From an uncultured Elioraea sp. (lineage in GTDB: Bacteria; Pseudomonadota; Alphaproteobacteria; Acetobacterales; Acetobacteraceae): a stretch of 64,000 nt of DNA. The position numbers and the translations under genes were made by a program. The DNA lies in NCBI GenBank assembly GCA_938010425.1, contig CALLUO010000027.1, forward strand, positions 1 through 64,000, given 5' to 3'. The notes below the pieces were generated by a model. It worked only from the letters and a program-made list of their open reading frames with translations. It ran no database searches and had not been told where the DNA came from. This document shows, one piece after another, positions 5,528 to 16,981 of the stretch. Each line of letters starts with the position of its first letter. Within the stretch, counting starts at the first letter, position 1.

Positions 5528-5824
5528 TTAAGGGGCGGTTCCCTCCACCTCGTCCTGCTGCGGCGGCACCTTTCCCTCTAGGGCAGAGATGCGTCCCTCT
5601 AGGGCAGAGATGCGCGCGGCCAAGCGGTCGTTCTCCTCGCGTGCCCGTTGCGCCAGTTCGCGCACCACCTCGAATTCCTCGCGGGTGATGAGGTCGAGCC
5701 GGCGGATCACCGCCTCTGCCGCCGCGCGCGCCATCGCCTCCATCTCTCGCCGCACGCCGACAAGGAGCGACACCACCCCCCCCGCCATGCCCGCCGCATC
5801 GTCCAGCACTGTCCGCTCGCGCAT
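5528..5824 (-). CDS. ubiK: UbiK family accessory factor (BMFP domain)
   Basis: A 98-residue coiled-coil protein of the UbiK/YqiC family, which helps aerobic ubiquinone synthesis and can associate with membranes. The N-terminal part is amphipathic (DDAAGMAGGVVSLLVGVRRE). The BMFP segment LDLITREEFEVVRELAQRAR is followed by a Leu/Ile-heptad coiled coil. I set the start at the ATG at 5824 because AAGGAGAG lies about 6 bases upstream. The coiled coil contains the heptad RISALEG twice in a row, encoded by a perfect 21-bp tandem repeat. The gene stands alone, divergent from hldD. Confidence 0.88.
   Translation of the reverse strand: MRERTVLDDAAGMAGGVVSLLVGVRREMEAMARAAAEAVIRRLDLITREEFEVVRELAQRAREENDRLAARISALEGRISALEGKVPPQQDEVEGTAP
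5573..5614. repeat. perfect 21-bp tandem duplication inside ubiK
   Basis: Two adjacent identical 21-base units, 5573-5593 and 5594-5614. The unit length equals seven codons, so the duplication adds exactly one coiled-coil heptad (RISALEG) without breaking the frame. Confidence 0.95.
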
Positions 5825-10500: not shown

Positions 10501-10596
10501 GCCCTGCCGTGCGGCGGGCCCGGCTTTACGCGCCAAGCCCCCATTGCTAACCCCTCGCCCGCCCTTCCTTCAGCCCACGCCGCGACGGAGCGCGCG

Positions 10597-11529
10597 ATGA
10601 AGATCGTCGCCTGCAACTCCAACCGCCCCCTCGCCGAGGCGGTGGCCACGGCGCTCAATCTGCCTCTGACCAAGGCCTCGGTGCGCCGCTTCGCCGACAT
10701 GGAGATTTTCGTCGAGATCCACGAGAACGTCCGTGGCGAGGACGTGTTCGTCGTTCAATCCACCTCTTACCCGGCGAACGACAATCTGATGGAGCTTTTG
10801 ATCACCATGGATGCGCTGCGCCGAGGGTCGGCACGCCGCATCACCGCGGTGATCCCCTACTACGGATACGCGCGCCAGGACCGCAAATCAGGCCCCCGCA
10901 CGCCGATCAGCGCCAAACTCGTCGCCAATCTGATCACCGAGGCCGGGGCCGACCGTGTGCTCACCCTCGACCTGCACGCGGGCCAGATCCAGGGCTTTTT
11001 CGACATCCCTGTCGACAACCTGTTCGCCGCGCCGATGTTCGCCGCCGATATTCGCCAGCGGTACGAGGGCCGCGACATCATGGTGGTCAGCCCCGATGTG
11101 GGAGGCGTGGTGCGCGCGCGCCAGATCGCTACCCGGCTCAACTGCGACCTTGCCATCATCGACAAGCGTCGCGAGCGCGCCGGTGTGTCTGAGGTGATGA
11201 ACGTGATCGGCGACGTCTCTGGCCGGCACTGCATTCTGATCGACGACATTGTCGATTCCGCTGGCACATTGTGCAACGCGGCAGAAGCGCTGATGCGCGC
11301 GGGCGCGACCACGGTGTCGGCCTATGTCACGCATGGCGTGTTTTCGGGGGGGGCGGTGGCGCGCGTGGCCTCATCCCCAATCGAGATGATGACGACGACG
11401 GACTCGATCCTCGCCACTGAGGCGGTGCGGGTCTGCCACAACATCCGCCAGATCACGGTCGCCCCTCTGCTGGCCGAGGCGATCCGCCGCATCAGCGAGG
11501 AGAGTTCGGTCTCCTCGCTGTTCTGGTAA
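10597..11529 (+). CDS. prs: ribose-phosphate pyrophosphokinase
   Basis: A 310-residue enzyme that makes PRPP from ribose 5-phosphate and ATP for nucleotide, histidine and tryptophan synthesis. The N-terminal domain begins [17 protein letters not shown], with [14 protein letters not shown] and the ATP-loop region [17 protein letters not shown]. The catalytic flexible loop [14 protein letters not shown] and the PRPP-binding loop [18 protein letters not shown] are intact. It starts at an ATG with CGGAG upstream. The length is typical of class I enzymes. Confidence 0.96.
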
Positions 11530-13531: not shown

Positions 13532-14626
13532 ATGGGCTTCAATTGCGGCATCGTCGGCCTGCCCAATGTCGGCAAATCGACCCTGTTCAACGCGCTGACC
13601 GAAACGGCGGCCGCACAGGCGGCGAACTACCCGTTCTGCACCATCGAACCGAATGTGGGCCGGGTGGCGGTGCCTGACCCGCGGCTCGATACGCTCGCCC
13701 GCCTCGCGAAGTCGGCCAAGATGGTGCCGACCAGCCTCGAATTTGTCGATATCGCAGGCCTTGTGCGCGGCGCCTCAAAGGGGGAGGGGTTGGGCAATCA
13801 GTTCCTCGCCAATATCCGCGAGGTGGATGCGATCGTCCACGTTCTGCGCTGTTTCGAGGGCACGGACGTAACCCATGTCGAAGGTTCGGTTGACCCGCTG
13901 CGCGATGCCGAGACGGTGGAGACCGAACTGATGCTGGCCGACCTCGAAAGCTTAGAGAAACGTGTGCCAGCGCTGCAGAAGCAGGCGCGCCGGGGTGATC
14001 GCGACGCAGCCGCCCAGCTCGCGCTGATCGAGCCGATGATGGCTGCGCTCGCGCGCGGCCAGCCGGCCCGGGTTGCCATTCCGCCGGGTGAAGAAAGGCG
14101 GGCGCAGGCGCTGAACCTGCTGACCACAAAACCGGTTCTCTACGTGGCCAATGTGGACGAATCCTCGGCCGCTACGGGCAACGCCTGGAGCGGGAAGGTG
14201 GCGGAGATGGCGCGGCAGAAGGGGGCGGCCTCGGTCGTCGTCTCGGCCGCGATCGAGGCCGAGATCGCGCAGCTGCCGGCGGAGGAGAAACGCGCCTTCC
14301 TCGACAGCCTCGGTCTCGCCGACTCCGGGCTCGATCGCGTCATCCGCGCGGGCTACGGGCTTTTGGGGCTGATCACCTTTTTCACCGCGGGGCCAAAAGA
14401 GACGCGGGCTTGGACGATCGTGCGCGGCACGAGGGCGCCGCAGGCGGCCGGTGTGATCCATGGCGACTTTGAGCGGGGCTTCATCGCTGCCGAAACAATC
14501 TCCTACAGCGATTATGTCGCCTGCGGCGGCGAGGCAGGCGCGCGCGAGGCAGGCAAGCTACGCATCGAGGGACGAGAGTATGTGGTGCAAGACGGCGATG
14601 TGATGCTGTTTCGCTTCAACGTGTGA
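13532..14626 (+). CDS. ychF: redox-regulated ATPase YchF
   Basis: A 364-residue Obg-related P-loop protein. The G1 loop [14 protein letters not shown] and switch region [20 protein letters not shown] are present. The fourth motif reads NVDE rather than NKxD, which gives YchF its preference for ATP over GTP. A C-terminal TGS domain ends [17 protein letters not shown] chose the ATG at 13532, preceded by GCGGAGACC, because it yields the standard [17 protein letters not shown] start. The protein associates with ribosomes and with catalase in other bacteria. Confidence 0.95.
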
Positions 14627-14650
14627 AGGGGGGGCGACCGCGTTGCCTGG

Positions 14651-14688
14651 TGCCTCAGTTCCCTCACGCCTGCGTGAGAAATGAGGCA
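14651..14688. terminator. two-tier hairpin downstream of ychF
   Basis: Nested inverted repeats: outer arms TGCCTCA (14651-14657) and TGAGGCA (14682-14688), inner arms CTCACGC (14663-14669) and GCGTGAG (14672-14678). It begins 24 bp after the ychF stop. There is no T-run after it, so it is either a factor-dependent end signal, an mRNA-stabilising hairpin or a regulatory structure. Confidence 0.5.
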
Positions 14689-14700
14689 GGGGCCACCTGC

Positions 14701-14744
14701 CACCCCTGCGCGCAGCAAGGCACACCCCTGCGCGCAGCAAGGCA
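14701..14744. repeat. perfect 22-bp tandem duplication upstream of fusA
   Basis: Two adjacent identical 22-base units, 14701-14722 and 14723-14744. Each unit contains the 10-base perfect palindrome CTGCGCGCAG. The pair lies directly after the two-tier hairpin and about 160 bp upstream of the EF-G start. No open reading frame explains it. Confidence 0.95.
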
Positions 14745-14902
14745 AGAGAGGGCGGTGCTTGCTTTTTCTGCTGCCCCGCGTCATCTAGCGCGCGTTCCAA
14801 GAGTGCGGCGCGATCGCGGCGGTGCCTGAGCCACCGCGTCAGCTCGCGCCCGCCCTACACTTATGCCCCTTGACTGATCGGGGCGAGACCAAGGAGGCCG
14901 CC

Positions 14903-16981
<2,079 letters not shown>

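Follow-up and report, generated by a model that had tools for sequence, protein, structure and literature searches.

The window, i.e., the whole 64,000-nt stretch of DNA analyzed here, is contig 27 of a 2.39-Mb assembly of an uncultured Elioraea sp. (101 contigs, 88.6% complete) and carries, on its plus strand, ychF followed by fusA. Both genes were read as ORFs and through their matches to annotated ychF and fusA, with tblastn in addition for ychF, whose start is assumed to be the ATG at 13532. For fusA, the start is read at GTG 14903, preceded by a conserved AGGAGG, the ORF as listed beginning at an upstream GTG (14822). The genes and the features of the spacer between them are the following:

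13532-14626, plus strand: ychF, the upstream gene
14651-14688, plus strand: two-tier hairpin, delineated by its fold, by the invariant columns of its core stem and by its location 36 nt past the ychF stop
14701-14722, plus strand: first copy of a 22-bp unit, with the palindrome CTGCGCGCAG at 14706-14715
14723-14744, plus strand: second copy of the 22-bp unit, with the palindrome CTGCGCGCAG at 14728-14737
14758-14790, plus strand: putative fusA promoter region, CTTGCTTTTT ... GTCATCTA, in which 24 of 33 columns do not vary across four genomes
14788-14902, plus strand: fusA leader, conserved and predicted to form two hairpins, with AGGAGG at 14892-14897
14903-16981, plus strand: fusA, the downstream gene (presumed start)

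The two-tier hairpin described in the initial annotation was confirmed. It comprises an outer stem (TGCCTCA/TGAGGCA, 14651-14657/14682-14688) and an inner stem (CTCACG/CGTGAG, 14663-14668/14673-14678) closed by a loop at 14669-14672, with a minimum free energy of -18.4 kcal/mol (z -4.67) that none of 200 shuffled sequences equaled. Stable hairpins are nevertheless frequent in this DNA: among 18,276 sampled segments of 38 nt, 2.5% fold at least as well, and the hairpin ranks ninth among the 21 gene 3' ends of the window, as crudely called from 47 ORFs picked by length and GC3, some of them surely on the wrong strand. The whole 141-nt stretch from 14620 to 14760 is no more structured than shuffled sequence, with a folding z of -0.77 and 46 of 200 shuffles being as good, and Rfam covariance models gave no match at E values up to 10 in 14300-15100. 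The 22-bp pair had been said to follow the hairpin at once, which is slightly inexact, as 12 bp intervene.

Relatives were searched in a set of 40 genomes (this one and 39 others), and the ychF-fusA junction could be aligned end to end, at 80-81%, in three of them (G001, G004 and G005). In all four genomes read with the junction, the core of the hairpin, CTCACG-N4-CGTGAG, is found exactly 36 nt past the ychF stop. The 12 columns of the core stem are all invariant, whereas in the rest of the spacer this is true of 32 columns out of 119 (or out of 97 when gap-free), the gap-free columns of the rest of the spacer showing pairwise identities of 46-66%. Such an invariant block arose in 16 of 20,000 column shuffles, in a test framed after the block was seen. 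Loop sequences vary and the outer stem, 7 bp long here, is shorter in the three relatives; a single stem-loop is predicted in all four sequences, with energies of -17.1 to -18.4 kcal/mol and z-scores between -2.2 and -4.7. Across these four genomes, on which the whole hairpin comparison is based, RNAalifold returned both-sided compensatory changes in 0 of 10 consensus pairs, with a covariation term of +0.31, and in the ungapped alignment two of the four outer consensus pairs are broken in this genome. The evidence for the hairpin is hence sequence conservation and not covariation and, since no both-sided compensatory change is seen, an RNA hairpin and a DNA dyad are indistinguishable by conservation alone. 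The consensus energy is itself unremarkable, 25.8% of 1,577 alignment windows being as low, the coding windows there being more identical.

Outside these four genomes, the distribution of the core is narrow. A survey of the sequence following ychF in 17 genomes (the four with the junction, G002, G003, G006 and 10 further family members) showed that the core is absent within 160 nt after ychF (126 nt for G015) in 13 of them. When the core pattern was searched in the seven Elioraea genomes, i.e., this one and G001 to G006, six had a single site, and G002, which is 75% complete, had none. The sites in G003 and G006 look like chance occurrences, as they lie on a different contig from ychF and as a reversed control likewise matches once in G006. 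With one site per genome in six of the seven, the hairpin is not a dispersed repeat. In G003 (locus L048) and G002 (locus L049), ychF and fusA are on one contig with other sequence, of approximately 3.5-4 kb, between them, and the direct junction is thus not genus-wide in Elioraea. The search of a plasmid collection returned, for the 20 records listed out of 37, matches confined to the last part of ychF or the beginning of fusA.

Regarding the function of the hairpin, its constant distance from the ychF stop, the absence of a plus-strand U-tract and the conserved block at 14758-14790, a possible fusA promoter, together suggest that it corresponds to the 3' end of the ychF mRNA. A canonical intrinsic terminator, in which a U-tract comes after a GC-rich stem, was considered for the plus strand and rejected, the scan having found none there, in agreement with the initial annotation, which had noted the absence of a simple terminator. 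The segment directly 3' of the stem, GGGGCCAC (14689-14696), contains fewer than three U in 8 nt, the threshold by which U-lacking ends are defined in Streptomyces clavuligerus (PMC8269248), and a stable stem-loop soon after a coding gene, another attribute of such ends, is present at 36 nt past the ychF stop. The hairpin is thus most likely a U-lacking 3'-end stem-loop of the ychF message. An mRNA-end element was among the functions first proposed for the whole structure, and this proposal fits the hairpin, which keeps its distance from the ychF stop in all four genomes. A literature search on a terminator between ychF and fusA yielded nothing relevant as judged by title, and one on Rho and trimming yielded no paper. 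Two matches, which overlap each other, were returned by the terminator scan on the minus strand; there, a terminator-like stem with a T-rich tail (14709-14686) overlaps the flank of the hairpin and the first 22-bp copy.

The dyad CTCACG-N4-CGTGAG could alternatively be a DNA operator at which a dimeric regulator, bound upstream of the fusA promoter, tunes EF-G synthesis. We regard this as unlikely, even if it is the strongest of the competing explanations. In its favor, it is the sequence that is conserved rather than a pairing pattern (12 of 12 stem bases, 0 both-sided changes), and the dyad lies 57-60 nt from the putative fusA promoter block in three genomes. The core is separated from the CTTGC block of this promoter by 57, 57 and 60 nt in the three relatives and by 79 nt in this genome, 22 nt above two of the three. 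As this spacing is also nearly constant, ychF is not singled out by a fixed distance to the core, and the additional 22 bp present here might, on a helical argument, amount to about two turns of DNA. On the other hand, a single site in six Elioraea genomes, with the seventh having none, implies no regulon, the dyad of G003 and G006 is on another contig than both ychF and fusA, and the flanks of the core can also pair in all four sequences, which would be needless for an operator. That no genome has more than one site and that the flanks pair favor an RNA element over an operator, although not decisively.

The 22-bp pair has a different history. As initially described, two identical units are present at 14701-14744, and the copies are exact, a match of this kind being expected 0.00 times (100 shuffles of the window). 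The palindrome CTGCGCGCAG taken alone is near chance level (two occurrences for 0.67 expected, at least two in 16 of the shuffles). At the site of the 44 nt found here, the three relatives G001, G004 and G005 have 22, 22 and 25 nt, and invariant columns number only 6 out of 44 in the four-genome alignment. Exact copies arranged head to tail, where relatives are shorter by one copy length at this place, are the signature expected of slippage, and the pair is probably a recent tandem duplication that arose by this route. The genome search proposed in the initial annotation, for which uniqueness of the unit and its absence in relatives were to count against a functional element, had this outcome as far as sequence tells: with up to three mismatches allowed, the two tandem copies are the sole occurrences in this assembly, and the three relatives with the junction lack the pair. 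Among the other Elioraea genomes, the unit has one three-mismatch match, in G003, and its reversed control likewise has one, in G002. A 19-bp core of the unit has six further three-mismatch matches versus four for the reversed control, and BLAST gave at best a 32-bp match outside this site (E 0.03).

Since the unit contains CTGCGCGCAG and is doubled, the two copies can pair over 10 bp around a 12-nt loop, and this raises the question of whether the pair could be a functional two-site array or, by virtue of the duplication, a second 3'-end hairpin. The predicted fold is stable (-22 kcal/mol, z -2.81, with 2 of 200 shuffles as stable), and yet we hold this explanation to be improbable: the pair is missing in the three relatives that have the junction, its columns are mostly variable, and a second private pair demonstrates that such duplications originate without this context. 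This duplication-born hairpin shows no sign of selection in the available sequences. The array of 22-bp protein sites ahead of fusA, which had been put forward in the initial annotation, was accordingly abandoned, as the unit is not conserved. The second pair consists of 21-bp units at 5573-5614; apart from the 22-bp pair, the tandem-repeat finder lists no further exact two-copy repeat in the window whose unit exceeds 20 bp. It is located in a minus-strand ORF, where seven residues (RISALEG) are doubled in frame, and it is missing from G001, G004 and G005, which are 20-21 nt shorter at this site. Private pairs of this type are hence not special to the ychF-fusA spacer.

Further downstream, conservation becomes more even in the putative fusA promoter and the leader. 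The promoter is proposed from conservation alone, as a sigma-70 consensus scan of 14500-15000 found none. The leader is kept in all seven Elioraea genomes and has no Rfam match; one pair of its long stem is A-U in four genomes and G-C in three, and in the second hairpin, which immediately precedes the Shine-Dalgarno sequence, the last pair also varies, being broken in two genomes. When 150 family genomes were searched with a model of the leader, matches came from two Elioraea, this genome and G006; the stricter filters of this search may lose weak matches, and the sample may have lacked the other Elioraea. The leader is possibly a regulatory one for EF-G and may be of greater interest than the rest of the spacer. 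Elsewhere in the window, a conserved stretch (10501-10596) precedes the ORF at 10597, which we take from its sequence to be a ribose-phosphate pyrophosphokinase; 83 of the 96 columns of this stretch are invariant in four genomes, a conservation as high as that of coding ychF (0.81) and fusA (0.84).

Considering both parts of the structure, we favor with reasonable confidence an explanation by two independent and ordinary features, namely a stem-loop at the 3' end of ychF and a recent 22-bp slippage duplication. Transcription of ychF would stop at the stem or somewhat downstream, either by U-lacking intrinsic termination or by Rho-dependent termination, the transcript being in the latter case trimmed back to the stem, which would block 3'-5' exonucleases. 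The ychF message would thereby be separated from fusA, which would be transcribed from its own putative promoter. In this lineage, slippage would then have doubled 22 bp in a poorly conserved spacer, and the palindrome within the doubled unit would have given rise to an incidental extra hairpin. The single composite element initially seen at this locus does not survive the comparison, the hairpin being common to four genomes and the 22-bp pair private to one.

A more speculative possibility, to which we give little credence, would reunite the two parts: in one group of Elioraea, a dedicated protein would recognize the invariant dyad, as RNA or DNA, and couple the expression of ychF and fusA, while the duplication, adding approximately two helical turns and a second hairpin, would retune this coupling with the phase left intact. 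As for the dispersed chromosomal repeat considered in the initial annotation, and more specifically a REP/BIME-like element, it is very improbable despite the palindromic and extragenic nature of the sequence, as the core of the hairpin has one site, the full unit has its two tandem copies only (up to three mismatches), the 19-bp core has six further matches against four for its reversed control, and the best match elsewhere by BLAST is short; this reading is contradicted in this assembly, which is 88.6% complete.

The significance of these observations is mostly one of calibration: alignment with three relatives resolves a striking composite into two parts, a hairpin that is conserved and a duplication that is private. 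If the hairpin is a transcript end, Elioraea thermophila YIM 72297, in which the hairpin is present and the duplication absent, would lend itself to a direct test.

With respect to known systems, short tandem duplications arise by replication slippage, and the 22-bp pair resembles them in having two exact head-to-tail copies and, in relatives, a single stretch of copy length; there is no notable difference, the copied unit merely happening to contain a palindrome. REP/BIME elements share with this locus their extragenic palindromic DNA and are described as usually present in more than 100 copies per genome (PMC2817692), a copy number that neither the hairpin core nor the 22-bp unit approaches in this assembly. 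The two further differ in that a single locus is concerned here and that the units are direct, whereas they alternate in BIMEs (PMC2817692). A further parallel is provided by the U-lacking structured ends (HS-U-lack ends, or I-shaped terminators) of S. clavuligerus. In this GC-rich bacterium, structured U-lacking ends outnumber U-rich ones (353 versus 182) and, in the account given there, are read as U-lacking intrinsic ends or as Rho-dependent ends with trimming to the stem (PMC8269248). The end proposed here is a prediction from sequence, and the conservation of the stem sequence is a feature of the Elioraea hairpin that apparently falls outside the S. clavuligerus description (PMC8269248). 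Both share a GC-rich genome and a stable stem-loop soon after a gene without a U-tract (PMC8269248). If the hairpin is indeed a transcript end, the known U-lacking gene ends will gain a further example, from an alphaproteobacterium of high GC content.
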